From the NCBI RefSeq assembly GCF_023277115.1, contig NZ_JALQCS010000001.1, positions 186,001 through 250,000 on the forward strand: 64,000 nt of DNA. The letters run 5' to 3'. The notes under the pieces were generated by a model. The model searched no databases, was not told where the DNA came from, and was given only the letters and a program-made list of their open reading frames with translations. Origin of the DNA: Acidithiobacillus acidisediminis. GTDB lineage: Bacteria; Pseudomonadota; Gammaproteobacteria; Acidithiobacillales; Acidithiobacillaceae. Below, one piece after another: positions 7,374 through 20,620 of the stretch (the stretch's first letter is position 1; each line of letters opens with the position of its first letter). Both the position numbers and the translations under genes were made by a program.

Positions 7374-8348
7374 TTACGATGCGCTAATTTGGGGGGAAGA
7401 ATGCACTACCGCTGCGCCCCTTCCGACGGTCAAACCCATTGTCCCCAAAAACTGCCGGAGACCGTCGGAGAAGCTGACTTGCGCCGCCCCCAAGCGAGAG
7501 TTCATGACGCGCACATCGGCCTGGGAATGCCGGATATCACCGGGCAGCGCTGGGACCCAGGAAAAATCACCAGAGCCATGCAACGCACACATTGTCGTCG
7601 CCAGCTGGCGAATGCTCGTAGCGATTCCCGAACCAATGTTTATCACTCCGTTATCGCCAGCGAACAAGGCGGCAACATTGACCCGGGCCACATCAAACAC
7701 ATGGATAAAATCCCGTTCCTGCAGCCCGTCCCCGCGGATAGTCAGGGGTTCGCGCAAACGCAACTGCTCAACGAAGCGAGAGATGACGCCGCTATAGGGC
7801 GATCTGGGGTCCTGGCGTGGCCCATAAACATTGAAATAGCGCAGGCCCATATGCGACAGGTCATACATCTGCTCATACAAGCGCGCGTAGAGTTCATTAC
7901 TGTATTTTTCCAGGCCGTAGGGAGAAATCGGCGCCACTGGGTCGCTTTCCCGTAGAGGAAGGATTTGCGGATCCCCATACACGGCTGCCGAGGAGGCATA
8001 CACCACACGCACCCCCCGCTTCCGCGCCAACTCCAGAACAACCACAAAATTCTGAATGTTTTCTGCGCAGGAACGCACCGGGTTTTCAATACTTTTCTGC
8101 ACGGACACCTGCGCCGCGAAATGGAGGATGCCATCGACATCATCCATCACCGGCTCCCAGAGGAGAGGATTCGCGATATCGCCGGTTACAACCTCCAGAC
8201 CGGGATGGGATGCTGGCAGATTTTCTCGGCAACCCGTCGAAAAATTGTCCAGCACTCGCACCCGATATCCTTCTTGTAATAGCAGATCAACTGTGTGAGA
8301 TCCGATAAACCCCGCACCGCCTATCACTAAAATACGCTCTTTTATCAT
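7374..8348 (-). CDS. UDP-sugar 4-epimerase (GalE/PelX-like SDR) at the end of the pel operon
   Basis: 324 residues of the extended SDR family, closest in style to UDP-glucose/UDP-GlcNAc 4-epimerases. GGAGFIGSH at residues 9-17 binds NAD. YASSAAVYGD and SPYGLEKYSNE provide the catalytic Ser and YxxxK. RYFNVYGPRQDP and ERDFIHVFDVA are classic GalE-group motifs. It starts 8 bases after pelG ends, with a good ribosome site, so it is operon-linked. Pel is GalNAc-rich, and a UDP-GlcNAc C4-epimerase (PelX) feeds some pel systems. The same role here is an inference from context. The last 20 or so residues look non-conserved. Confidence 0.85.
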   Translation of the reverse strand: MIKERILVIGGAGFIGSHTVDLLLQEGYRVRVLDNFSTGCRENLPASHPGLEVVTGDIANPLLWEPVMDDVDGILHFAAQVSVQKSIENPVRSCAENIQNFVVVLELARKRGVRVVYASSAAVYGDPQILPLRESDPVAPISPYGLEKYSNELYARLYEQMYDLSHMGLRYFNVYGPRQDPRSPYSGVISRFVEQLRLREPLTIRGDGLQERDFIHVFDVARVNVAALFAGDNGVINIGSGIATSIRQLATTMCALHGSGDFSWVPALPGDIRHSQADVRVMNSRLGAAQVSFSDGLRQFLGTMGLTVGRGAAVVHSSPQISAS

Positions 8349-8356
8349 TCTTCCCT

Positions 8357-9727
8357 CTAATGAATACGAATAAATGTCAAATAATCGATTCGCCGGAAAT
8401 CCCGGGACAGAAGAAATATGCCAAGGGTATCAACCAGAAACAGGGCCAAAGAAAATCCCATCCCATAGAAGAAAGGACCCGCCCAGAGCGTGAGATAGGT
8501 AAAAGCAAAATTCCCCAAAACGAAAAGCATGCTTAACAGCACGGCGCGTGCACGCAAGTCCAGATAAAAATAAACATTCAACAGACTCATAAGCAGGAGT
8601 TGCAAGCTCACTCCGATCACGTCGAACTGAAAGATGCGTGCATAACTCTCGGAATAGCCCAACACATGTAATAATTTTGAAGTAAAGGCGAAGGCGAGCA
8701 GCACCGTTACGCCTTGTACTTTGGCAATATCCCAGAGACCTGCCCGCGTAGCCAAGATCATCCCGCTCTTGGCGGCGTGCAATTCCTGCAGTGTTCCACC
8801 ATCCACGATCGCCCGATTATAGGCATCGTAAGCTTCGACAAAATCTGTCTCCAGGCGGAAAAGAAAAACCGCCAGCCCTGGAACGATCAGGAGATAGCTG
8901 AGAAAGATGGGTACATCATAAATTGGCGAGGCATGCAGTGGTCCAATGACCTGGGCGCCGGTAGCCGGATTGAACCAAAACAGAAATTTGTCCATCCAGA
9001 CCCCAGCGTTGAAGGTCAAGCCCACCAGGGATAGTGACCAGAACAGCCGACTTGCGCGACTATTTGGCCATTGTAAGTAGCCAGGGAACTCACGAATTAC
9101 GGTAACGCCCAAACCGAGAAGAAGAACCCATTGCCCCAGGGCAAACGCAGCGAGATACCCGGTCAATCCCCAGTGGCGACCACAAAACATCCCCAGCAAA
9201 ACGATTGTTGCATACGCCAGGAAATACCAACTCACCAGCGTCTTATAGTCTTTCAGGCTGGTGCCCATGATCGTCAGCACCCAGACGCCACAGAGCTCGA
9301 CAAAGCTGACGCCCATCAATATCTGGTAGTGAATCGGGGTATCTTGGAACAATAAAAATAAGACCAAACCGGCAAATACGGCACCTGGTACAATGGTCGT
9401 CACCAGCATCGTCACCAATACCGTCACCACGGACCGGGCCTGACGGGCGAAGAGCATATCGGCGATATAGCGGGTAAACAGTAATTGCGGGGGTCCCGTG
9501 AAAATAAGCGATACCGCGATGAGATAGGTTACCGAGACCTGAAATTGAATGATCGGCAGAGCGGCAGAGCGATCGCTCAGGGCCAGAAACCCAAGCAACA
9601 GAATCCCAAAAATCGACAGCAACCAGGGGCCGGAGGAGACAATGCCGGCGTAGCCGTAGGCCTCGATCAGCGCCAGATACGTGCGCCGGCGCAGGATACG
9701 GCGTAGTTCAAACCCAATACCAGCCAT
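8357..9727 (-). CDS. pelG: Pel polysaccharide inner-membrane transporter PelG
   Basis: 456 residues, essentially all membrane: about twelve hydrophobic helices in the MOP/Wzx flippase style. It begins MAGIGFELRRILRRRTYL, as PelG proteins do, and matches the length of the Pseudomonas protein. With PelD, PelE and PelF it should move the growing Pel chain across the inner membrane. It starts 2 bases after the pelF stop and is followed by the epimerase gene. No lesion is visible. Confidence 0.93.
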   Translation of the reverse strand: MAGIGFELRRILRRRTYLALIEAYGYAGIVSSGPWLLSIFGILLLGFLALSDRSAALPIIQFQVSVTYLIAVSLIFTGPPQLLFTRYIADMLFARQARSVVTVLVTMLVTTIVPGAVFAGLVLFLLFQDTPIHYQILMGVSFVELCGVWVLTIMGTSLKDYKTLVSWYFLAYATIVLLGMFCGRHWGLTGYLAAFALGQWVLLLGLGVTVIREFPGYLQWPNSRASRLFWSLSLVGLTFNAGVWMDKFLFWFNPATGAQVIGPLHASPIYDVPIFLSYLLIVPGLAVFLFRLETDFVEAYDAYNRAIVDGGTLQELHAAKSGMILATRAGLWDIAKVQGVTVLLAFAFTSKLLHVLGYSESYARIFQFDVIGVSLQLLLMSLLNVYFYLDLRARAVLLSMLFVLGNFAFTYLTLWAGPFFYGMGFSLALFLVDTLGIFLLSRDFRRIDYLTFIRIH

Positions 9728-9729
9728 GC

Positions 9730-11229
9730 TCAGCTCTCCCGCAGCGCCGCGCGCTCAAATAGTTGCCGGTAGGCGGAAAACATCTGTTCCTCGCGGTATT
9801 CGCCCTCGACTCGTAGTACCGCCTGCGTGCTACAGGCCTGCCACATCTCCGGATTGTCGAGCAATTCGCCGATGGCCAGGGCCAATGCCTCCGGTTCCGC
9901 AATGGGCACCACTCTTCCCGCCGCACGGGGTTGGTCAGGATCTGCGCCAAGGATCAGTTCTCGGCAGGAGCCCACGTCCGTGCTGACTACGGGTACCCCT
10001 GCGGCAAAGCTCTCCAACACCGAGAGGGGTAGCCCTTCACTGATCGAGCTCAACACCGTCAGGCGAATCTCTGACAATATTTCTGCCACACTACGAAATC
10101 CCAGGAACTCTACCTGTTTTTCTAACTGCAGATGGCGCAGCAATATCGAGCACTCGGCGAAATATTCCTCATCCTCCTCCGTCGGGCCAACAATCCAAAA
10201 ACGGGTGTTTCGGCCCTGATTCCGCGCCACTGCGGCACTGCGGATAAAGGTCTTGATATCTTTGATTGGCACCACCCGGCCAATCAATGCCACGACATCC
10301 TGACGCTGCTCATAGGTTCTGCGGCAGGCGACAAAATTTTCCACGGCGATGCCATTGGGAATGGTTTGTAGCTTTGCCGGGCTGGCACCATCGGCTACCT
10401 GCAGTGGAATAACGCCAGCATACAGGTTCACAATGGCATATGCTTGGTCGTAACTGATCTTTCCCAATAGGGCAAAAAAATTGATCCAGAGTTGTCGCAG
10501 ATAATGGATATGTCCCGCACGTTGCAGAAACTCTTCATCTTCCTGAATCCAACGGGCCAACATCAAATCAATGCGCCGCTCCTTGGTATAGATACCATGT
10601 TCGGAGATGATCAGTGGACACTCCTGCAGTTGGCTGAGCAAGGCACCAAGGTAGCCGGCATAGCCCGTAGATGGGCATTGTATGATTTTCGCCTGCGGGG
10701 CTTTTTCCAGTGCCTGCTGTATCGCCCAGAGGGGGGCGTGCATGCCACGAATGGTCCAGAAATAATCCACAAAAGGCGGCTGATCGGCAATTTCGGCATA
10801 GCGTGACAGAAAGCATTGCCAAATCCTCTCTGCATAGAGAAAGTCTAACTGACTAACGGAGAAATTGTTCGCATAGGCATTCAGATCCAATTTTTCTGGC
10901 CCGCCAGCGATGCATTTTTTCATTTGTTCATGCGCAGCGGAAACCGTTTCCAGGTTGGAGACGCGATGTCTTGACAACAGCCGATCACGTGGAAAATCCT
11001 GGCTATCATGGAGAAAATATTCAGCAAAATAATCGACATTTTCAGGTAGTTCATAAGGTTTTGCCGTATAGTCATCACGCGCACTGCCCAGAAAAATTAC
11101 GCCAAAACGCTTATCGGAGAAACCTTGAATCATCCGCCTGACCCACGAGGAGACTCCACCGCGGACGTAAGGGAAGGTACCCTCCAGGACCAGCAGAATA
11201 TCTACGGGTTGGGCGGTCTTTTGCGTCAT
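9730..11229 (-). CDS. pelF: Pel polysaccharide glycosyltransferase PelF (GT4)
   Basis: 499-residue cytosolic GT-B glycosyltransferase that builds the Pel chain from UDP-GalNAc (family knowledge). Near the start, LVLEGTFPYVRGGVSSWV is the PelF signature. The C-terminal half has the GT4 E-x7-E pattern in SISEGLPLSVLE, followed by AAGVPVVSTDVGSCREL. The ATG at 11229 is chosen because it overlaps the pelE stop as ATGA; the frame also reaches 11247. It sits between pelE and pelG, the expected order. Confidence 0.95.
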   Translation of the reverse strand: MTQKTAQPVDILLVLEGTFPYVRGGVSSWVRRMIQGFSDKRFGVIFLGSARDDYTAKPYELPENVDYFAEYFLHDSQDFPRDRLLSRHRVSNLETVSAAHEQMKKCIAGGPEKLDLNAYANNFSVSQLDFLYAERIWQCFLSRYAEIADQPPFVDYFWTIRGMHAPLWAIQQALEKAPQAKIIQCPSTGYAGYLGALLSQLQECPLIISEHGIYTKERRIDLMLARWIQEDEEFLQRAGHIHYLRQLWINFFALLGKISYDQAYAIVNLYAGVIPLQVADGASPAKLQTIPNGIAVENFVACRRTYEQRQDVVALIGRVVPIKDIKTFIRSAAVARNQGRNTRFWIVGPTEEDEEYFAECSILLRHLQLEKQVEFLGFRSVAEILSEIRLTVLSSISEGLPLSVLESFAAGVPVVSTDVGSCRELILGADPDQPRAAGRVVPIAEPEALALAIGELLDNPEMWQACSTQAVLRVEGEYREEQMFSAYRQLFERAALRES

Positions 11230-12131
11230 GCAGCAGACCCCGACCAATAACGATAGGATGGACCATAGCGCGAGGAGAGCGCCAGCTCGGGATGCTGCGC
11301 GTACAGTTTCCGCAGACCATCGAGATCGCGCTGCAGATACAGTGCAGCAGCATAATGGGGAGCGAGTACGGCGGGGGCAACGCGATCGCGCTCCGCTTGC
11401 TGCAGAAACGTCATGGCCAGATCGGCCTGTCCGGCTTCCAGTGCCGCCAATCCCGCCAACATGGCGGGCAACGCTGCCGCTTTGTCTTCTGCAAGTTCCG
11501 CTCCTGGCGGCGTTACCTCGCGCCGCGTTTCCGGTTCGGCAAGCTCACGGGAAACCGCATGTTCGATGTTCCAGCGCAACCACGCCAAATAATCTCGTAA
11601 GCGCCGCTGCATACGGGGATTAGAACAATCCTTGATGTCTTCTTGTAGCTGCAAGAGCAGCTCCGTGTTTTCTTGTTCACGCTGATCCAGCGCTGCGTAG
11701 GCGAGCAAACGAACTTCCTCCGCCTTATCGCGTAGTGCACTGCGCAGTAGACGGGTCGGCTCCGCAAAACGCGCACTGACGATTTGTGACAGGGCTTCCA
11801 CCCGCTGGCTGGAGTTTCTAGCGCCGCGCAAGCGCCCAGCTATGGCACCAGGAGTTACACTAGAGGCACGCAGACGAAAGTCTCGCGCCGGCAGGGGCAC
11901 GATAATCGGCTCTGCAGATGCTGCATGAATGCGCCCGCTCACCGAACGCAGGGCCGTCGCGTAAGCCAATGCCAGAATGGCGCCGAAAAAAGGTAAAAAC
12001 ACAGAGAGCAAAAAAAACAGGATCCATGCCGCAGACCCGTTGCGGCCGGGCTGTTCCCGCGGGACGATCAGGCTGGCCGCTAACGACGCTACCAGGGACA
12101 CCACCACCCAGAGAAGGATCAGGAAGGTCAT
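11226..12131 (-). CDS. pelE: Pel inner-membrane protein PelE
   Basis: 301 residues. Two N-terminal transmembrane helices (about 1-22 and 34-58) are followed by a soluble, helix-rich region with TPR-like character, as in PelE. PelE works with PelD, PelF and PelG in the synthase complex. The ATG at 12131 overlaps the pelD stop (ATGA) and its own stop overlaps pelF in the same way, so pelD, pelE and pelF should be translationally coupled. The open frame extends 37 residues upstream, but that part overlaps pelD and looks non-native. Sequence conservation is weak in this family, so position carries much of the call. Confidence 0.85.
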   Translation of the reverse strand: MTFLILLWVVVSLVASLAASLIVPREQPGRNGSAAWILFFLLSVFLPFFGAILALAYATALRSVSGRIHAASAEPIIVPLPARDFRLRASSVTPGAIAGRLRGARNSSQRVEALSQIVSARFAEPTRLLRSALRDKAEEVRLLAYAALDQREQENTELLLQLQEDIKDCSNPRMQRRLRDYLAWLRWNIEHAVSRELAEPETRREVTPPGAELAEDKAAALPAMLAGLAALEAGQADLAMTFLQQAERDRVAPAVLAPHYAAALYLQRDLDGLRKLYAQHPELALSSRYGPSYRYWSGSAA

Positions 12132-13417
12132 GCCTCCTGACCCTCTGCCAAAAGATCTTGCACCTGGACCACCGCATCCCGTTGGTCCACTCTGACGGAA
12201 TCCCGCCGCTGCAGAATCTGCTCCCAGTCCTCTGGGCAACATTGCCGAATCTGCGCGTCAATACGCTGTAAATAACCATCAACTGCACTGGGCCCCGCAA
12301 ATGGCAGAAGGACCAACAAAATCGTATGCTGTTCCGAGCGATGCACCCAAAGGACATCGAGTCCACGGCGCAGAGCCTCGATCTTGTTCACAACCAGTTC
12401 CGTTACTGCGGTCTCGGCCAATACATAGCGAATACAGAAACCTACTTGCGAGACGACCCTCGCAAGCCGCTGCAGCTGCAAAAGATCCGTGGCGAACTCC
12501 GGTGGACAATCTGGCCAGCGCCGCAGAAGGTTTTGCGAAAATTGAGTAGCGCCGGCGTAATTACACAAATATTGAAATAACACTTCAATGATCTGCAGAT
12601 TTTCCTGACTGATGGCATAAAATGACATATCCTCAACGCCAAGATAATGGCGAATTTCGGTATTATTTTTGTGCACATGGACGCTCAGGTACTGATGAAT
12701 TTCTCCCAGATCCAAACCGGCAATGTTTTGACTCTGAGCATCCGTTTGGGCGCGGCGCCACACCGGATCCGTTACATCCAGGGGAGACACATTACCAAAA
12801 GACGCGATCAACTTGAGACCGGCAGCAGGATCCTGCGTCGAGTACCAGGCCGCAATCTGCACTCCCGCAAGCTGATTGAGAAAGTACAAGGTACGAGAAA
12901 CAATTTCCGGATTCAGCTCGCCCCGGCTCGCTACCAAGCCTTGGCGCAATTCCTCCACAGCACTGCGAATCGAGATGGGTTGATACAGCAGACTTTGTTC
13001 CAAACGGTCCAGGGAGACGCGTGTTACGTAGAGGTCATCCGCGAGTTGGCGCAAACGCGTTGCGGTAATTTCTTCCTCAAGAGCACGCCCCAGCTCCCGC
13101 CGCGACCAATAAGAGCTGAACTCCGCGGCGATCAGGATAACCAGTACGGTACCGGCCGCGATCGCCAATCCCTGTGCAACGGGGTAGGGATGCCAGAGAA
13201 ATGTGGTCGCCAAGATCAATGCCGAACCCAAGGCGGGAAGAAACGCGTAGCGTAGGGCAATCAACAAGGGAATCAGCAATAACCAAGGGAAATCCTCCGT
13301 CAGCAGGAGGGGATCCCTGGGATCGAGGAGGCTGCTCAGCAGCAGGGCAAGTGCCGGAAACAGAATTGCCTCCAGCCAGCCCTCGCCTCGCCGTTGAGGC
13401 ACCGTAAAGAATCCCAT
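12128..13417 (-). CDS. pelD: c-di-GMP receptor of the Pel synthase, PelD
   Basis: 429 residues. Four hydrophobic helices span about 16-105. A helical linker (ELGRALEEEITATRLRQL) then leads to a GAF-like domain and a C-terminal degenerate GGDEF-like domain. PelD activates polymer synthesis when c-di-GMP binds an RxxD inhibitory-site motif. The best candidate here is RGLD at about 351-354; that assignment is mine. No GGDEF active-site sequence is present, as expected for a receptor that is not a cyclase. It lies 5 bases downstream of pelC and overlaps pelE. Confidence 0.9.
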   Translation of the reverse strand: MGFFTVPQRRGEGWLEAILFPALALLLSSLLDPRDPLLLTEDFPWLLLIPLLIALRYAFLPALGSALILATTFLWHPYPVAQGLAIAAGTVLVILIAAEFSSYWSRRELGRALEEEITATRLRQLADDLYVTRVSLDRLEQSLLYQPISIRSAVEELRQGLVASRGELNPEIVSRTLYFLNQLAGVQIAAWYSTQDPAAGLKLIASFGNVSPLDVTDPVWRRAQTDAQSQNIAGLDLGEIHQYLSVHVHKNNTEIRHYLGVEDMSFYAISQENLQIIEVLFQYLCNYAGATQFSQNLLRRWPDCPPEFATDLLQLQRLARVVSQVGFCIRYVLAETAVTELVVNKIEALRRGLDVLWVHRSEQHTILLVLLPFAGPSAVDGYLQRIDAQIRQCCPEDWEQILQRRDSVRVDQRDAVVQVQDLLAEGQEA

Positions 13418-13422
13418 CTGGA

Positions 13423-13956
13423 TCAGGAGAATGCGCGACCGAGAAGCCGTTGAATCAGACGTTGTGCGACACCGCCGGTGCCACCCCGCCCCAGACTCCC
13501 GCCGTGCGCACTCCCCACCCCGCTCCAGATCACCTTACCGCTCGCCACGTCCACGACCCAGAGCGTCATCGCAACTTCCGGCTCGGCATTGATGCCGGCA
13601 CGGTAGTCCCATTCATCGACGCTGCCGGCAACGGCATAGCGCGCTCCCTCGTCCCGTGCAGTGCGCAGGGCGCTGGCATATTCCTGCTTCCAATCGCCCC
13701 CAAGCAAGGCCTCTGTGCGGGTGCTGATCGGCAGTTCACCCCGCACTTGCCGGCCTTCACTTTGCAAGACTCCTGCCGCCATCGCCGCGGCACGCGCGTT
13801 GGCCATCGGGGTCTCGGTATTGTTCACAAAGGGCAGGACGGCCCAGGCAGCGTCGCGATTGGCAGCGACCGGCTTGGCACTTTGGATGTTCATGCCGGCA
13901 CAACCAGACAGTAAGAGGGCAAGCCCCGCAAAAAACAGGATGTTGCGCCAGTTCAT
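13423..13956 (-). CDS. pelC: Outer-membrane lipoprotein PelC
   Basis: 177 residues. A short signal peptide ends in the lipobox LSGC (Cys near residue 19), so the protein should be lipidated. PelC forms a periplasmic ring beneath the outer membrane that funnels Pel towards the PelB barrel. WAVLPFVNNTETPMANARAA and VASGKVIWSG are typical of this fold. The ATG at 13956 is preferred because AGGAGG lies 7 bases upstream; the frame is open 8 codons further. It follows the PelB-barrel ORF closely, in normal pel order. Confidence 0.9.
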   Translation of the reverse strand: MNWRNILFFAGLALLLSGCAGMNIQSAKPVAANRDAAWAVLPFVNNTETPMANARAAAMAAGVLQSEGRQVRGELPISTRTEALLGGDWKQEYASALRTARDEGARYAVAGSVDEWDYRAGINAEPEVAMTLWVVDVASGKVIWSGVGSAHGGSLGRGGTGGVAQRLIQRLLGRAFS

Positions 13957-13976: not shown

Positions 13977-15386
13977 TCAAAAATAATAGCGATAACCAAT
14001 CCGAACAATCCGTTGGTTGAGGGCGAGGCCGTTTCCTCCCTGCCCCTGGGCAAAACCAATCCGCAGCCGATCGGGTCCGAATACTGCCGTGCTCAACCCC
14101 GCATCCAGTTGATATTGCGGTCCAAAACGGGTGTTTTCATAGACGCTTAGGGAGAGATACGGGCTCCAGTTGCTCGCCAGGGCATCTTGCCAGGCTCCCC
14201 ATTGTAGGCGCAGCCCGAGATCCCCATAGCTCCCTGGCAACACCGTATTGATGCTGCGGGCATCGGGTTGCAGCGCATCTGCAATCACCCCCTGTAACTG
14301 ATCAACGCGAGTCAGATGATGATAATCGGCGAAAGGCCCTAGCTGTAGCTCCCACGGACCGAGAGGGTGGCGCCAGAGCAAGGAGATCTCTCCATAGCCG
14401 TCGCTTCCCAGCGCTTTGCCGTCCTGCCCCTGATATTGCCGCCAACCCGCGCCGATATTGCCTAGCCAGGACCCCAATCGTTGCGCCCACTGGAAATCTG
14501 CGCGATCGACCATCCCCGCCACAGCCAGGGCCGGGCTTTGCAGGCTCCGATCATGATAGGCGAAAGTGGCGGCAAGCTCGCCACTATCTGACGCCTGCCA
14601 AACGAGAGTGGCATTGGCACTGAGATTATCCCGCGTTCTGCGATAGCTCCCCACCAAGGCCTCTATCTGCCAGCGCGGATCCTGCCAACGCACACCCACA
14701 AGACTGCGGCTGCTCCAGGCGGGCGTGTGCAACAACTGTGAACTCGCATTCGCGGACTGCCGCAACGCATCGCCATCAAAAACCAGACTCCAGCGATCAT
14801 CCCACGCAATCCGTCCGCGCAAACGAGGGCCATACAAGCTCAAGCCATTAAAGCTTTGCCAATGCCCAGCCAAATCGACATAGCTGGCCGACTCCCGAAC
14901 CGCCTGCAGATACTGCCGTCGCAGTTGGCGATCATAGGGATTGTGCTGCATCGCCGCCAAAGCATCCTGGCGCGCTTGCCGGTACCGCCCGAGGTCCATT
15001 TCTGCCTGCATCCGATCACGCACGGGCAGACCCTGCGGGTGGCGGAGGATACGAGCCAGCGTAGCAGAATCATGCGCGTGCAGGGCAAGGCTCAAACGCG
15101 CCCAGCGCGGCGTCGGCTTTGGATTGTCGGCAATCAGCACTTGCGCTAAGCCCCAATACCCTCGGGACAAGGCCCAGGAAATTGCGGGCAGATAATCTCC
15201 GCGGCGTGCCGCCGCAAGTAAGACGGAGCGCGTGGTATTGCCATCAAGCGGCGCTGAAGCGAGGGAATCGGCCAAGGTATGCAGAGGATCGTCACGCAGA
15301 ACACCTTGCGTACCTTCCCCCCACGCAATGACAGTGTAAAAAGAGAGGCCTGCAACTATGAACAGCGAAAGGTTTTTTGCTTTCAT
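13977..15386 (-). CDS. pelB: PelB C-terminal part as a separate protein: outer-membrane beta-barrel
   Basis: 469 residues with its own signal peptide (MKAKNLSLFIVAGLSFYTVIA, cleavage near residue 23). A TPR-like region follows, then alternating polar/aromatic strands typical of an outer-membrane barrel. It ends RIGYRYYF, with the C-terminal aromatic residue that outer-membrane proteins use for assembly. In Pseudomonas, PelB is one protein of about 1190 residues with TPRs and a C-terminal porin. Here the porin is its own ORF; its ATG overlaps the stop of the upstream TPR ORF (ATGA). It should be the Pel exit channel. Confidence 0.82.
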   Translation of the reverse strand: MKAKNLSLFIVAGLSFYTVIAWGEGTQGVLRDDPLHTLADSLASAPLDGNTTRSVLLAAARRGDYLPAISWALSRGYWGLAQVLIADNPKPTPRWARLSLALHAHDSATLARILRHPQGLPVRDRMQAEMDLGRYRQARQDALAAMQHNPYDRQLRRQYLQAVRESASYVDLAGHWQSFNGLSLYGPRLRGRIAWDDRWSLVFDGDALRQSANASSQLLHTPAWSSRSLVGVRWQDPRWQIEALVGSYRRTRDNLSANATLVWQASDSGELAATFAYHDRSLQSPALAVAGMVDRADFQWAQRLGSWLGNIGAGWRQYQGQDGKALGSDGYGEISLLWRHPLGPWELQLGPFADYHHLTRVDQLQGVIADALQPDARSINTVLPGSYGDLGLRLQWGAWQDALASNWSPYLSLSVYENTRFGPQYQLDAGLSTAVFGPDRLRIGFAQGQGGNGLALNQRIVRIGYRYYF

Positions 15387-17032
15387 GGCCGGGCATCACC
15401 CTGCTGCAGGGCCAGAAAACTTTGTTGTGCCGCCTGCCGACGAAGCGTCCAGGCCAAGCCCGGCTGACCAACGCTATCCCAAAGAGATGCCGCGTTGAGC
15501 AACCGTCTCTCCGGCTGTCCATCCGCATGGGGGGGCATGGTTGCTGCCAAGTGCAGGGCTTCACGATGGCGCCCCAGACGCTCCAGGGCGTTCAGCACCA
15601 CATCGCGCATACCTGGAGATGGTCGGGCGATGTTATCCACCAAGAGGGCCCGCAGGGTTCGCACCTGACCACTATCGATGAGCATCCACAAGAGATTATT
15701 TGCCGCTACACTATCCTCTGGATTGCGGTGCAGCGCCTGCGCATAGGCAAAGCCAGCGAGGGCATAATGGCTCCGCGCATTGGCCCACTGCCCCATGGCC
15801 AGCCAGTAGGCGGGATAGTTTTTTACCCCATCGGGATCCTTTTTCTCGACAGCATGCAAGAGATCGCCCAGGGTATCCCAATGTTTGGCCTCTGCCGCGT
15901 AGTACAGACCCTCAAAATAGAATAGCGGCAGACGATAGCGTTGCCAGCCACGAAGCGCGACCGCGAGAGCGGCTTCGGGATTTTCCTTCCCACTCAGGAC
16001 GACCAGGCGCTGTAAATCATATTGGCTGGCGGCACCAAGCAGATACAGGGTCTTTTCGGCCTGGAAGGCAACGGCATTGTCGTGCAGCTCCCAGGCCAGT
16101 ACGGCGTAAAGCCGCCAAAACGGAACATCCTCCAGGGTTGCTTGCTGCCGAACCCGCTCCAACGCAGCAAAGGCCAAGCGATAGTTCCCCTGCATGGACA
16201 GGAGATGCGCCTCATCGATAGCCACGGACGGATTCGAGCCATACAGGGCAGCACTGCGCTGTAGGGCATGCAGACTGGTCTCGATATCCCCCATCTGGTA
16301 ACTGAGATAGGCCTTTTGGGTGAGCAAATAGTGACGCCGCCCAAAATGCTGGAGCGCAAAGTCCAGAGCCTGGAGCGCGCGCCCCGGTTCGCCAAGCTCG
16401 CCGTAGGCGAAGATCAGCGCCTTCCACTGTTCATCGCTAAGTGGCTGTGCATGCGCCAAGGGTGCGAGCATGGCAATGACCACATCCGGCCTGGACAGGG
16501 TGAGCGCCAAAGATACTGCTTTCTTTTGTGCGCTCGCATCTCCATGTTCTGCCAGCCAGTGCAGTTGCCGCAGCACTTCCTCGCGCTGCCCCAGCCATCC
16601 TGCAACTTCGATCAGTCGTTGCCGCCATACCAGATCATCAGGTCGCTGTTGCACCGCGGTGTACGCCAGTCGGTAGGCCTCTGCCAAATCATGGCTCTGC
16701 AGAAAAACACGGTAAGCGAGTTCATACACCTTGGTCGAGTATCTGCCAGGGTAAGGTTCTACCTGCAAGGGCGGACTGTACCAGGACGGTGATACCCCTC
16801 CTTGATCCAGATAACTCATCCCCTTGCCACTTTTTTGGCTAGCCATGAGATCGGCAGCAAAGGTGTTTGCATCCTCTTTTTCCGCCAGATATTTTTGGCG
16901 CCACTGCGCATCATCAGACGCCAGACTGCCCGGCGCCTTCCACCACTCGTTGGGCAACCCGCTAGCGCGGGCAGATAGTGTCGACGAGATGAGCAGGAGC
17001 CCAAGGAATATCCAGCCGGCCCGTGCCCTCAT
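15383..17032 (-). CDS. pelB: PelB central part as a separate secreted TPR protein
   Basis: 549 residues. The ATG at 17032 gives a signal peptide (MRARAGWIFLGLLLISSTLSARA) and overlaps the upstream stop as ATGA; the frame is open 16 codons further, but without a signal sequence at the start. The rest is helical with repeated TPR-like units (ALQALDFALQHFG, AFAALERVRQQA, AYAQALHRNPED). It should lie in the periplasm and act with PelA and PelC, as the PelB TPR region does in Pseudomonas. Both of its ends overlap neighbours by four bases, so it is a genuine separate ORF rather than a frameshift product. Confidence 0.82.
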   Translation of the reverse strand: MRARAGWIFLGLLLISSTLSARASGLPNEWWKAPGSLASDDAQWRQKYLAEKEDANTFAADLMASQKSGKGMSYLDQGGVSPSWYSPPLQVEPYPGRYSTKVYELAYRVFLQSHDLAEAYRLAYTAVQQRPDDLVWRQRLIEVAGWLGQREEVLRQLHWLAEHGDASAQKKAVSLALTLSRPDVVIAMLAPLAHAQPLSDEQWKALIFAYGELGEPGRALQALDFALQHFGRRHYLLTQKAYLSYQMGDIETSLHALQRSAALYGSNPSVAIDEAHLLSMQGNYRLAFAALERVRQQATLEDVPFWRLYAVLAWELHDNAVAFQAEKTLYLLGAASQYDLQRLVVLSGKENPEAALAVALRGWQRYRLPLFYFEGLYYAAEAKHWDTLGDLLHAVEKKDPDGVKNYPAYWLAMGQWANARSHYALAGFAYAQALHRNPEDSVAANNLLWMLIDSGQVRTLRALLVDNIARPSPGMRDVVLNALERLGRHREALHLAATMPPHADGQPERRLLNAASLWDSVGQPGLAWTLRRQAAQQSFLALQQGDARP

Positions 17033-17901
17033 GGTGTCTGCTCCGCCGGCGCAGCGCGCAGTAGCTCCCGATGCAACCACCGCGCGGCAAGCTGCGGATG
17101 ATCATTCGCCAAGGCCAGCTTGGACATCACCAGCACGACCTGCGAGTCCTGCCACAGGGCGGGTAACTTCTGTAAGGTTGCCTGTCCAGAGCGTAGTGCG
17201 ACACGCGCGCCTGCGCCCCCCTCTAGCCAAACAATGCCACGCAGAAAAAAAGTCTTCTGTTGCGCTTCCTCTGCGCTTTCCTCGGCCAGTTGCAGGAGGA
17301 TCTGCCCACCCTGTGCCGCCTTGTCGCCCGCCGCATACGCGCGCGCGGCAGCCAGGAGATCTGATGCTCGCTGCGACGGTTGCCTTTTTGCCGCTTCTGA
17401 CCAGGCCTCGGCGCTCAGTTCATAGGCACCCAAGGCAAAGGCATCTTGTGCGAAACCACGCCACTGCTGCGCCGACCAAGAGCCCAAAGCGAACAATGCT
17501 GCTAGCTGCGGGCGCAAGGCCAACATTGCCGTCCGGCGCGCCGATGAATGGGGGGGAAAGGCTAGTGTTCGGGTTTTGGCGATCTGCCACTGCAGCAGGC
17601 ACGCCCGACGATACAAGGGCCCTTGCGGATCCCCCAAGATTGGCGCAATTTGCCGTTCTGCCGCCGCATACTGACCACTACGTAACATCAGCTCGGCACT
17701 CTCCAGTTGTGCCCGGGCATCCGCAGAAGACTCCTGAAAGGCAATGCGCCCGTGCCAGCCATACTGCCAAGCGACACCCGCCAACACCGCCAACACAATC
17801 AGCACAAAAAGCAGCAGGCTAGCCGGACGCAAGAGCCGCGTCTGGCCACCAGCAGCGTCACGCTCCGGGACAGCGGACATCGACGCGAAGATGCTCTGCA
17901 C
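17029..17901 (-). CDS. pelB: PelB N-terminal part as a separate membrane-anchored TPR-like protein
   Basis: 290 residues. A single transmembrane helix at about 28-48 (LLLFVLIVLAVLAGVAW) is followed by a periplasmic helical region resembling TPRs (LESAELMLRSGQYAAAERQI). It fits the membrane-anchored N-terminus of PelB, whose TPR and barrel parts are encoded by the next two ORFs. The GTG at 17901 has AGGTG about 7 bases upstream; the alternative ATG at 17880 has no visible ribosome site. It overlaps the end of pelA by about 40 bases. The assignment rests mostly on operon position. Confidence 0.7.
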   Translation of the reverse strand: MQSIFASMSAVPERDAAGGQTRLLRPASLLLFVLIVLAVLAGVAWQYGWHGRIAFQESSADARAQLESAELMLRSGQYAAAERQIAPILGDPQGPLYRRACLLQWQIAKTRTLAFPPHSSARRTAMLALRPQLAALFALGSWSAQQWRGFAQDAFALGAYELSAEAWSEAAKRQPSQRASDLLAAARAYAAGDKAAQGGQILLQLAEESAEEAQQKTFFLRGIVWLEGGAGARVALRSGQATLQKLPALWQDSQVVLVMSKLALANDHPQLAARWLHRELLRAAPAEQTP

Positions 17902-20620
17902 TACTCTGCACCTGCGAGGAGGCAGACACTGGCCTTCCGTTTAGCTGCAGTTGGCAACCTTGGATGTTGGCCAAGTGCATCTGGACCGGCACAAAACCAT
18001 CCAACTGCGCGGTGAAACCGTCGGCATTCTCCTGAAAAGCGCTAATTGGTGCATTTGCGCTGACGATATAGGGTTTTTGCGGAATTTTGGGCTGCAAAGC
18101 CAAATATACGGAGTTTTTTCCGTCCATGTGTACATAATAGGCACCGTTCGGCGTATCGTTGTATCCAGCAATGCCAGAACTGGCTGCCAGGTCTGGATAA
18201 CCCAATTTTTTTGGCATCCGCAATTCCCGCAAACTCGTCGCACCGCCAATCCAGAAACCGTCGCCTTGCCGTGCCACATGAACGGTAAAGAAGTTATTGG
18301 CAATGTGGCCATAGTCTGCCACGTAAATTGGCGTAATCGATTGTTTCAACACCCAATCATAGACCTTTTCCAAGGCGGAGAGGGAGGCCTGCTTGGTCGC
18401 CGAATACCAGTGCGTATAGATGTCGATGGGCTTCAAACGATGTGGCTTGTCGGTCATCTCGAAGGTCTGAATGACATTGACGAAGCCCCAGAATGGCCCA
18501 TGCCACTGATTGGTAAAATAATCTTCGTTCGCGTCCGGGGCGAAGACCTGCAGCCACTTGCCGCGGAAAATACCAATCGGGGGTACCGCGGTGATACTGG
18601 AATCTTTCTTGCTGATATAGCTGTCACCACCGTTGATATTCATCAGGCCTGCACTGTAGGCCAGCCCGACCACCTCTGCATCGGGATCGCAATCCCCCGA
18701 CCATTGGTCGATCACGACTTTTTTGTCTGCGGGAGCCAAGTGCTTGTCGATCCATTCGGCGGCACCTACGGCCTCCATATAGGGGCTGAATTTGTATCCG
18801 GGAACTGGGAGATTGATCCCTGGAAAATCCTTCCCCGCCTCTATCGCGGGCCAATTGAAGGGATGCGACCACATGTGCGAGCCAATCTCGACATAGGGCA
18901 AGCGAAAAATTTCCCGCGCCACCTTGGTGCCCAAGGGGGCGAGTGCCGGATACAGGCCCCGATCCCCCTGTAACAAATCTCCAACGATGACGGAGCCGGT
19001 AAACGGTAAGCGATATTTTTCCAGGATCCGGTGCATGTAGACTTCACCGGCAATATGGTAGGGCGGGAATTGCGCCCGGCTGACGAAACCATCGCCGTCG
19101 GTATGGGCCATGAACAGGCGACGTCCGCTCTCGGTCGTGGTATCGGGCACCGGCATCGACGGCAGGCGCAGGGCCTCCCGGTACAACGCAAAAGGGTCCA
19201 CCAGCCAGCGCGTGTCTTTGTTCGGCAAGGTCGTGAGCACATAGGGAGACAAAACATAGCCGCCCCAAGGGGTAATGGCCGCTGCCGCTTCCTGCGCACC
19301 TGCAGCTCCTCGCACCTGTAACCAGACTTTGCTTCCCGACGGGGCATCAGTCGTCAGGAAATCGCGCGTACTCGCCTGAATAGGCATCTCATAATTCATT
19401 TCCTTGCTGGCATTCTCGATTTGGGCAGAAGCCTCCGTTGCCGAGCGTGGCCGAGACATGTCTAACGCCTGATACAGGCCGGCATCGAGATCATCCTGAA
19501 AATCGCCCAGCAATAGGATGGGGATTCCCGCCTTTTTGGCCTCGCGCAACCAGTGCGAGAGGCCGGCGACATCATCGATGGGGTCCCCGTCACTCCAGAA
19601 GACAACGCCGGCATATTCCCCTGCATGCACCGCTTTGGGAAGGCCCTCCGAGAGGCGACGAAACTCCGGAATATAGCCCAGGTACTCGAGGGGCATCGCG
19701 CCATTGGCAAACGCCGTGCTGTATTCCTCTGGTCCCGCACTGTTGTACAGGATCAACACATGCCGCGGCATGGGCTCGCGCGCGCCGGCGCCCACCGCAG
19801 TGAGTTCGGCATTGGTCACATAAGGGATGAAGCCCAGCGCGCGAATCTTCTGCGCGTCTTCCCACCAGCCCTGACGATTGAGTTGTGTTGGCATATAGTC
19901 AATGACCATGGCGGGCAGACCATAGGACTGGGCTTGGTGCAACTGGGCGATCAGCGCCTGACGATTTGCCTCCGACACCTGTCGATAGCTGTGGGTAGCC
20001 TGATCCCACTCGCGAAACAACGATTCCGCCAGCACTGCCACCAGGTCCTGGTGAATCTTGGGCAGCACAGAAAATCCGCGATTGGCGATAAGTTCGGCCT
20101 GCGGGTGTGCTGCCTTGATGGCGGCAATGAGGTCCACCAGACCACACTCCTGCGCTTGGCGCGCGGCCCCTTGGGTCACCGCCTCGTAGGAGTCCAGGGT
20201 ATCCAGAAAGAAGCCGTGGTAGCCTTCCGCCCAGATGGGATCGATGACCTTGTGGAGCAGATAATCACGACACTGCGGCTGCGCCAGATCGATGATCTTT
20301 CCGCCCCAGGCCGAATTGCGTCCGAGCACACAGGAAGCCGGGAGATCCGCGTACGCACTATTGCCGGGCGTGCTTTCCCCGATACTGACATAGGAAAAGA
20401 CCTTCTGTTGCGGAGCAAAATCCCTCGGCAAACGCTGCGCACCGGGGTTAACGACGACCCAATCAAAATCTTGGAAACCAGAAGGCGCGGCACCATCGCC
20501 ATAGTAAAAACCGACACTGGGCGACAAGGCAGCCTGTGCTGATGCTCCACAAGCAAAAATAAGCAGCAGAGCTGCGGCTACAAGCGCATGCACGGCCTGC
20601 CAAAAATAGTTCAAGCGCAT
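17858..20620 (-). CDS. pelA: Pel hydrolase/deacetylase PelA
   Basis: 920 residues with a signal peptide (about 1-29), so periplasmic. The N-terminal glycoside hydrolase-like domain (about 35-280) contains FFLDTLDSYE and the probable catalytic Glu at 199 in LAESLF. A Rossmann-like middle follows. The C-terminal polysaccharide deacetylase has its metal Asp in HTDGDG (506-511) and the HxxxH pair in SHMWSH (581-586). PelA partly deacetylates and trims Pel. The spacing of these residues parallels Pseudomonas PelA. It is the first gene of the operon; AAAGGA precedes its ATG and the phosphoribulokinase terminator lies just upstream. Confidence 0.95.
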   Translation of the reverse strand: MRLNYFWQAVHALVAAALLLIFACGASAQAALSPSVGFYYGDGAAPSGFQDFDWVVVNPGAQRLPRDFAPQQKVFSYVSIGESTPGNSAYADLPASCVLGRNSAWGGKIIDLAQPQCRDYLLHKVIDPIWAEGYHGFFLDTLDSYEAVTQGAARQAQECGLVDLIAAIKAAHPQAELIANRGFSVLPKIHQDLVAVLAESLFREWDQATHSYRQVSEANRQALIAQLHQAQSYGLPAMVIDYMPTQLNRQGWWEDAQKIRALGFIPYVTNAELTAVGAGAREPMPRHVLILYNSAGPEEYSTAFANGAMPLEYLGYIPEFRRLSEGLPKAVHAGEYAGVVFWSDGDPIDDVAGLSHWLREAKKAGIPILLLGDFQDDLDAGLYQALDMSRPRSATEASAQIENASKEMNYEMPIQASTRDFLTTDAPSGSKVWLQVRGAAGAQEAAAAITPWGGYVLSPYVLTTLPNKDTRWLVDPFALYREALRLPSMPVPDTTTESGRRLFMAHTDGDGFVSRAQFPPYHIAGEVYMHRILEKYRLPFTGSVIVGDLLQGDRGLYPALAPLGTKVAREIFRLPYVEIGSHMWSHPFNWPAIEAGKDFPGINLPVPGYKFSPYMEAVGAAEWIDKHLAPADKKVVIDQWSGDCDPDAEVVGLAYSAGLMNINGGDSYISKKDSSITAVPPIGIFRGKWLQVFAPDANEDYFTNQWHGPFWGFVNVIQTFEMTDKPHRLKPIDIYTHWYSATKQASLSALEKVYDWVLKQSITPIYVADYGHIANNFFTVHVARQGDGFWIGGATSLRELRMPKKLGYPDLAASSGIAGYNDTPNGAYYVHMDGKNSVYLALQPKIPQKPYIVSANAPISAFQENADGFTAQLDGFVPVQMHLANIQGCQLQLNGRPVSASSQVQSSAEHLRVDVRCPGA

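Follow-up and report, generated by a model that had tools for sequence, protein, structure and literature searches.

The export protein PelB, which carries the sticky biofilm sugar Pel from the inner to the outer membrane, is pictured as a single long polypeptide that connects the two. Here we analyse a stretch of 64,000 nucleotides of Acidithiobacillus acidisediminis DNA (contig NZ_JALQCS010000001.1, positions 186,001 to 250,000; hereafter the window), in which the pelB position of a pel operon is occupied by three consecutive open reading frames (ORFs). PelB of P. aeruginosa, a single chain of 1193 amino acids, comprises an inner-membrane helix (residues 1–36), tetratricopeptide repeats (TPRs) 1–19 (69–726), an alpha-rich region (727–910) and a barrel (876–1193) (PMC12022489), and its electron cryo-microscopy structure shows where Plug-I, Plug-O and Plug-S lie (PMC12141448). 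BcsC and PgaA, which export cellulose and poly-N-acetylglucosamine, also combine a TPR array with a 16-strand outer-membrane barrel; unlike the proteins described here, they are single chains, and they have no PelC ring (PMC12141448). In the alginate system the TPR scaffold, AlgK, and the outer-membrane barrel, AlgE, are separate proteins, which have been modelled end to end (PMC9734138).

Splitting of pelB as such is already known: the legend of Fig. 5(iii) in PMC7112194 notes, for 'aquatic thermophilic species', a 'pelB fission', which may or may not lie at the same place as the cut near residue 283 described below. For A. caldus and A. thiooxidans, a pelA–pelG operon with an epimerase at its end has been described, with no remark on a split pelB in the passages that deal with the operon (PMC5852609, PMC4331095); mutation of pelD in A. 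thiooxidans changed the biofilm structure (PMC5852609). The three-part form is apparently undescribed: we found no description of it in the literature, the supplementary figures (of which PMC4331095 S6 and PMC5852609 S3 show an Acidithiobacillus pel operon) not being covered by the search.

The three ORFs lie on the minus strand and fill the interval between pelA and pelC, where pelB belongs. ORF1 (PelB-N, 17029..17880) encodes 283 amino acids, with a predicted inner-membrane helix and approximately TPRs 1–6. ORF2 (PelB-M, 15383..17032; 549 amino acids) has a predicted Sec signal peptide, a family-specific segment of about 71 residues and 13 TPR-like pairs, and ORF3 (PelB-C, 13977..15386; 469 amino acids) has a predicted signal peptide, an alpha-rich region of nine helices including the stalk, and a 16-stranded beta-barrel. 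At both junctions the stop codon of the upstream ORF overlaps the start codon of the next as ATGA (17029..17032 for ORF1/ORF2 and 15383..15386 for ORF2/ORF3). ORF1 had been listed from a GTG (17901-17029); the ATG at 17880, which corresponds to the conserved MS start in the alignment of orthologs, is the more probable start, and the in-frame GTG at 17901 the less likely one. For ORF2 the program-made list likewise took a GTG, at 17080, while the ATG at 17032 opens the signal peptide and makes the overlap with the ORF1 stop. ORF3 opens with the ATG at 15386.

A sequence-only reading of the window had proposed that PelB is split here into three ordered ORFs with an ATGA overlap at each junction. 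The frames and coordinates above agree with it, and profile searches against PelB gave colinear matches for all three proteins. In hhalign comparisons with a profile of 13 single-chain PelBs, ORF1 (as 15 orthologs) covered columns 18–292 (E=1e-22), ORF2 reached column 735 (E=1.4e-49) with its TPR part beginning at about column 295, and ORF3 covered columns 811–1221 (E=3.3e-34). The ORF2 match starts nominally at column 245, its initial stretch being the weakly aligned family-specific segment. The same order was seen with blastp against a single chain of 1357 amino acids (L058), which was matched by ORF1 at 100–321, ORF2 at 415–866 and ORF3 at 972–1357. Together, ORF1 and ORF2 make up a long TPR scaffold homologous to PelB TPRs 1–19.

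ORF2 contains a long TPR array (Pfam TPR_15, 2.5e-44), and its residues 117–465 align with residues 304–651 of P. aeruginosa PelB (PDB chain 9h80_M, E=2e-17). ORF1 alone is too divergent for a single-sequence phmmer search, which gave nothing convincing; when a profile of its 15 orthologs was compared with all PDB chains, the best match was again PelB (9h80_M, residues 145–239, E=2.2e-6). The possibility that ORF1 is an unrelated protein was rejected on the strength of these two profile matches, and neither ORF1 nor ORF2 falls into another family. ORF3 carries the C-terminal barrel domain (Pfam PelB barrel PF24604, 7.9e-43, 147.6 bits against a cut-off of 31). Sequence searches of the PDB with ORF3, single or as a profile, returned no PelB, the barrel being too divergent for this route, and its assignment is based on Pfam and hhalign, which settled the identity. 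The barrel in ORF3 is the only PelB barrel domain in the genome, so a second, whole pelB elsewhere was also rejected. Compared with P. aeruginosa PelB, the domains, their order and the position between pelA and pelC are the same, but the single polypeptide is replaced by three, with two additional signal peptides and the additional segment in ORF2. Very probably, then, PelB is made here as three proteins, ORF1, ORF2 and ORF3, each translated and exported on its own, with the divisions between them at or close to domain borders.

We surveyed related pel operons for the same arrangement. The three ORFs occur in the same order in all 16 loci (the window included) in which the layout can be read whole; these represent three genus groups of the Acidithiobacillaceae and two metagenome-assembled genomes (MAGs), with several of the related genomes on chromosome-size contigs. 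The ORF1/ORF2 overlap is 4 nucleotides in 16 of 16 loci, and the ORF2/ORF3 overlap is 4 nucleotides in 12 and 8 nucleotides (ATGAATAA) in the other 4. Between two close relatives, the three ORFs had ratios of non-synonymous to synonymous substitution rates (dN/dS) of 0.08–0.21 (PelA, 0.07; PelD, 0.13), values that point to purifying selection on all three. Within the family, the PelB barrel was found in 19 of 29 genomes, and ORF1 in 17 of these 19; in both genomes with the barrel in which ORF1 was not found (G001 and G027), the locus lies on short, fragmented contigs. A continuous pelB was not what these relatives showed; scaffold and porin are divided over three ORFs there too.

Broken pelB genes do exist. 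In Thiomonas intermedia locus L142 (2801–6633), pelB is apparently frameshifted into two ORFs that overlap by hundreds of bases and lack a signal peptide, while pelB is intact in L145. None of the marks seen in the Acidithiobacillaceae, namely identical cuts across the 16 loci, exact 4- or 8-nucleotide overlaps, new signal peptides at both cuts and purifying selection, are present in L142. Conservation in 16 loci, the precise overlaps and dN/dS well below 1 led us to reject assembly error or decay, and the idea that a mutation or a sequencing error has interrupted a single PelB here has, in our view, practically no chance of being correct. The split is an ordered one and not damage, as the sequence-only reading had maintained.

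One genome of the family (G014, locus L035) has ORF2 and ORF3 joined in one chain of 968 amino acids, with the second signal peptide gone at the join; it is the only family member in which the middle TPRs and the barrel are joined. The locus is nested among three-part rows on a tree of PelF and PelG, and, given this position and the missing signal peptide, the simplest reading is that the fusion is secondary. Such a natural fusion suggests that ORF2 and ORF3 work as one unit.

ORF2 and ORF3 each begin with their own predicted signal peptide (MRARAGWIFLGLLLISSTLSARA, with predicted cleavage near ARA|SG, and MKAKNLSLFIVAGLSFYTVIAWG, respectively), which score 1.7–3.0 on an 11-residue hydropathy scale. 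The matching regions of the 13 single-chain PelBs mostly have no such hydrophobic stretch (maximum 1.93 at junction 1 and 1.68 at junction 2). In the window, the signal peptide of ORF2 has no Cys lipobox, so that ORF2 differs from AlgK, an outer-membrane lipoprotein. ORF1 has a longer hydrophobic stretch behind an Arg-containing start, without a clear cleavage site; its TPR-like nature is supported by the profile matches, and it would be anchored in the membrane by an uncleaved helix. The signal peptides also bear on the possibility that the frames are joined at the ATGA overlaps, through programmed frameshifting or readthrough of the stops, to give some full-length PelB. Short overlaps could let ribosomes re-phase, but a signal peptide behind each downstream start would be useless within a fused chain, the letters flanking the overlaps vary among species without a common slippery site, and the true ORF2–ORF3 fusion has dispensed with the second signal peptide. 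We therefore consider production of full-length PelB in this way highly improbable.

By alignment, the first cut falls near residue 283 of P. aeruginosa PelB, inside the TPR array and approximately after TPR 6, a count estimated from repeat spacing. The second cut falls near residues 723–727. Since the border between the TPRs and the alpha-rich region lies at 726/727 (PMC12022489), the second cut corresponds to the end of the TPR array. An AlphaFold2 model of ORF2 (predicted local distance difference test score, pLDDT, 85) has 26 helices forming 13 pairs after residue 100, in agreement with the 13 repeats of P. aeruginosa PelB TPRs 7–19. PelB residues 332–436, cited in PMC12141448 as the region of contact with PelA, map by alignment inside ORF2, which would thus hold the PelA-docking repeats. 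The model of ORF3 (pLDDT 88) has nine helices followed by 16 strands, with a helix in the loop at strands 7/8, helices at 11/12 and a Gly-rich loop at 15/16; in the model, these features occupy the Plug-I, Plug-O and Plug-S positions, respectively, as in P. aeruginosa PelB. In its extent ORF3 is close to a PelB fragment (762–1193) that, when supplied with a foreign signal peptide, inserted on its own into the outer membrane with the PelC ring attached to it; this contact was lost once the helical part of the fragment was removed (PMC12141448).

The segment that follows the ORF2 signal peptide (residues 28–98, from a WW motif to a PPxxVxPxP motif) has 32% invariant columns, a conservation equal to that of the repeats. 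A search with the segment did not find it in any pel locus outside the Acidithiobacillaceae branch. The AlphaFold2 model gives it one helix followed by a low-confidence stretch, and we consider it a candidate docking element.

Using PelF to search genome contigs, we obtained 80 loci, in which the expectation that split forms of PelB may exist in other lineages proved correct. Most of the beta- and gammaproteobacteria among them have a single-chain PelB. A two-part PelB, with a membrane-anchored N-terminal part and a part of about 940 amino acids with a signal peptide, is widespread in other phyla; we found it in Geobacteraceae (L080, L093, L106, L114 and L131), other deltaproteobacterial MAGs (L125 and L132), Campylobacterota (L097, L119 and L127), Alcanivoracaceae (L129 and L151) and single acidobacterial (L112) and gammaproteobacterial (L092) MAGs. 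Its cut is at the same place as the first cut here, near residue 283, with an overlap of 4 nucleotides in most loci. In contrast to the Acidithiobacillaceae, where the chain is cut again near residue 725, the middle TPRs and the barrel are together in the second part. Given these homologs, a single polypeptide is not essential to PelB. The three-part form was found, among the 80 loci, only in the branch with the Acidithiobacillaceae; only the second cut is special to this family.

On the PelF and PelG tree, the three states (one, two or three parts) need five changes, compared with a mean of 27.6 after shuffling. The tree is unrooted, quickly built and has long branches, so that either the one- or the two-part form may have come first; as two-part PelBs occur in several other phyla, rooted trees can answer whether the change was a fusion or a fission. 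A tentative possibility, to which we give no more than modest weight, is that PelB was encoded in separate parts first, and that these were fused later into the single chain seen in Pseudomonas and Burkholderiales. The Pel machine would then, at base, consist of non-covalent modules (a synthase-side TPR anchor, a PelA platform and a PelC-ringed exit), most divided in the Acidithiobacillaceae, where the modules might differ in copy number or be exchanged.

We propose that stop–start coupling at the ATGA overlaps would keep the three proteins at linked levels, and that each would cross the inner membrane separately. ORF1, held in the inner membrane by its uncleaved helix, would expose the first TPRs on the side of the synthase. 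ORF2 would form a soluble periplasmic TPR solenoid, where PelA may dock and deacetylate Pel, and ORF3 would insert in the outer membrane as a gated 16-strand exit barrel, its alpha-rich or stalk region nucleating the PelC ring. Stacked end to end without covalent links, in whatever stoichiometry, the three parts could form the path for the polymer that is formed by single-chain PelB. The layout resembles that of AlgK and AlgE, with which we claim no homology; differences are that ORF3 keeps part of the helical region in the barrel protein and that a third, membrane-anchored TPR part is present.

An alternative is that there is no continuous scaffold, with ORF1 belonging to the inner-membrane PelDEFG synthase complex, ORF2 being a free cofactor of PelA, and only ORF3 with PelC forming the outer-membrane exit. 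In many phyla the piece corresponding to ORF1 is encoded on its own, as a membrane-anchored protein; ORF3 is similar to the PelB fragment that sufficed for the PelC ring (PMC12141448); and the 71-residue segment that opens ORF2 is conserved yet family-specific. Nevertheless, the TPR series is still complete and in order, the cuts having cost little of it, the parts are covalently joined in single-chain relatives, and an ORF2–ORF3 fusion has arisen. We consider this alternative rather unlikely, and favour three exported parts stacked into one path. Several points weigh against this favoured reading. ORF1, the fastest evolving of the three (dN/dS 0.14–0.21), may have a looser role. In most orthologs the hydrophobic stretch of ORF1 ends in an A-x-A-like motif (in the window, G-V-A), where cleavage may take place. 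The signal peptides were recognised by visual inspection and a rough hydropathy rule and not by a trained predictor. Finally, that the three proteins touch one another, bind PelA and PelC and together export Pel is an inference. A family that keeps three exported parts would be natural evidence that an envelope bridge can be built of separate subunits, and three-part PelB would offer ready-made, individually expressible modules for studying the passage of Pel from the synthase via PelA to the exit barrel.

The operon is complete, all on the minus strand. pelA (17858..20620; 920 amino acids) has a GH114 domain (3.9e-19) and aligns over its full length with PelA of other pel operons. The ORF3 stop (13977) is followed, after 20 nucleotides, by the likely ATG of pelC at 13956, behind AGGAGG; pelC (13423..13956) encodes a predicted lipoprotein (LLSGC lipobox) with weak LpoB-like matches and was assigned by position and orthology. 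It is followed by pelD (12128..13417; PF16963, 3.2e-29), encoding the cyclic di-GMP effector, and by pelE (11226..12242), which has no Pfam match and was assigned by position and by orthology with PelE of other pel operons; its coordinates are given from the first ATG, and the real start may be further downstream. pelF (9730..11247; NF038011, 3.1e-166), pelG (8357..9727; PF16933, 3.1e-137) and an NAD-dependent sugar epimerase (7374..8348; PF01370, 6.4e-60) complete the operon.

Other pel loci depart from this organization in various ways. In L119, L125 and L127, pelA and pelB lie behind pelG rather than before pelC, in the order C-D-(E)-F-G-A-B-B. The acidobacterial MAG locus L112 (7228–19566) has its pel operon in two convergent halves: pelC-D-F run forward, and pelG, pelA and both pieces of pelB run in reverse. 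A reduced pel operon in a genome of the same class (G419, L067, 9626–12432) has a 317-amino acid PelA-like ORF with GH114 and a 634-amino acid barrel ORF with few TPRs; no PelC was recognisable by blast between the barrel and PelD. In Nitrosospira multiformis (L122, 4775–7522; L130, 4805–7552) a 915-amino acid PelB-like TPR protein without a barrel stands directly before pelD, with no pelC, and the pel operon is apparently without an exit porin of its own. Several Burkholderiales and Chromobacteriaceae (L083, L100, L101, L110, L111, L123, L126, L138, L143 and L144) have a second, short PelA-matching ORF (about 290–310 amino acids) downstream of pelG; in L111 there is, in addition, another single-chain pelB close by.

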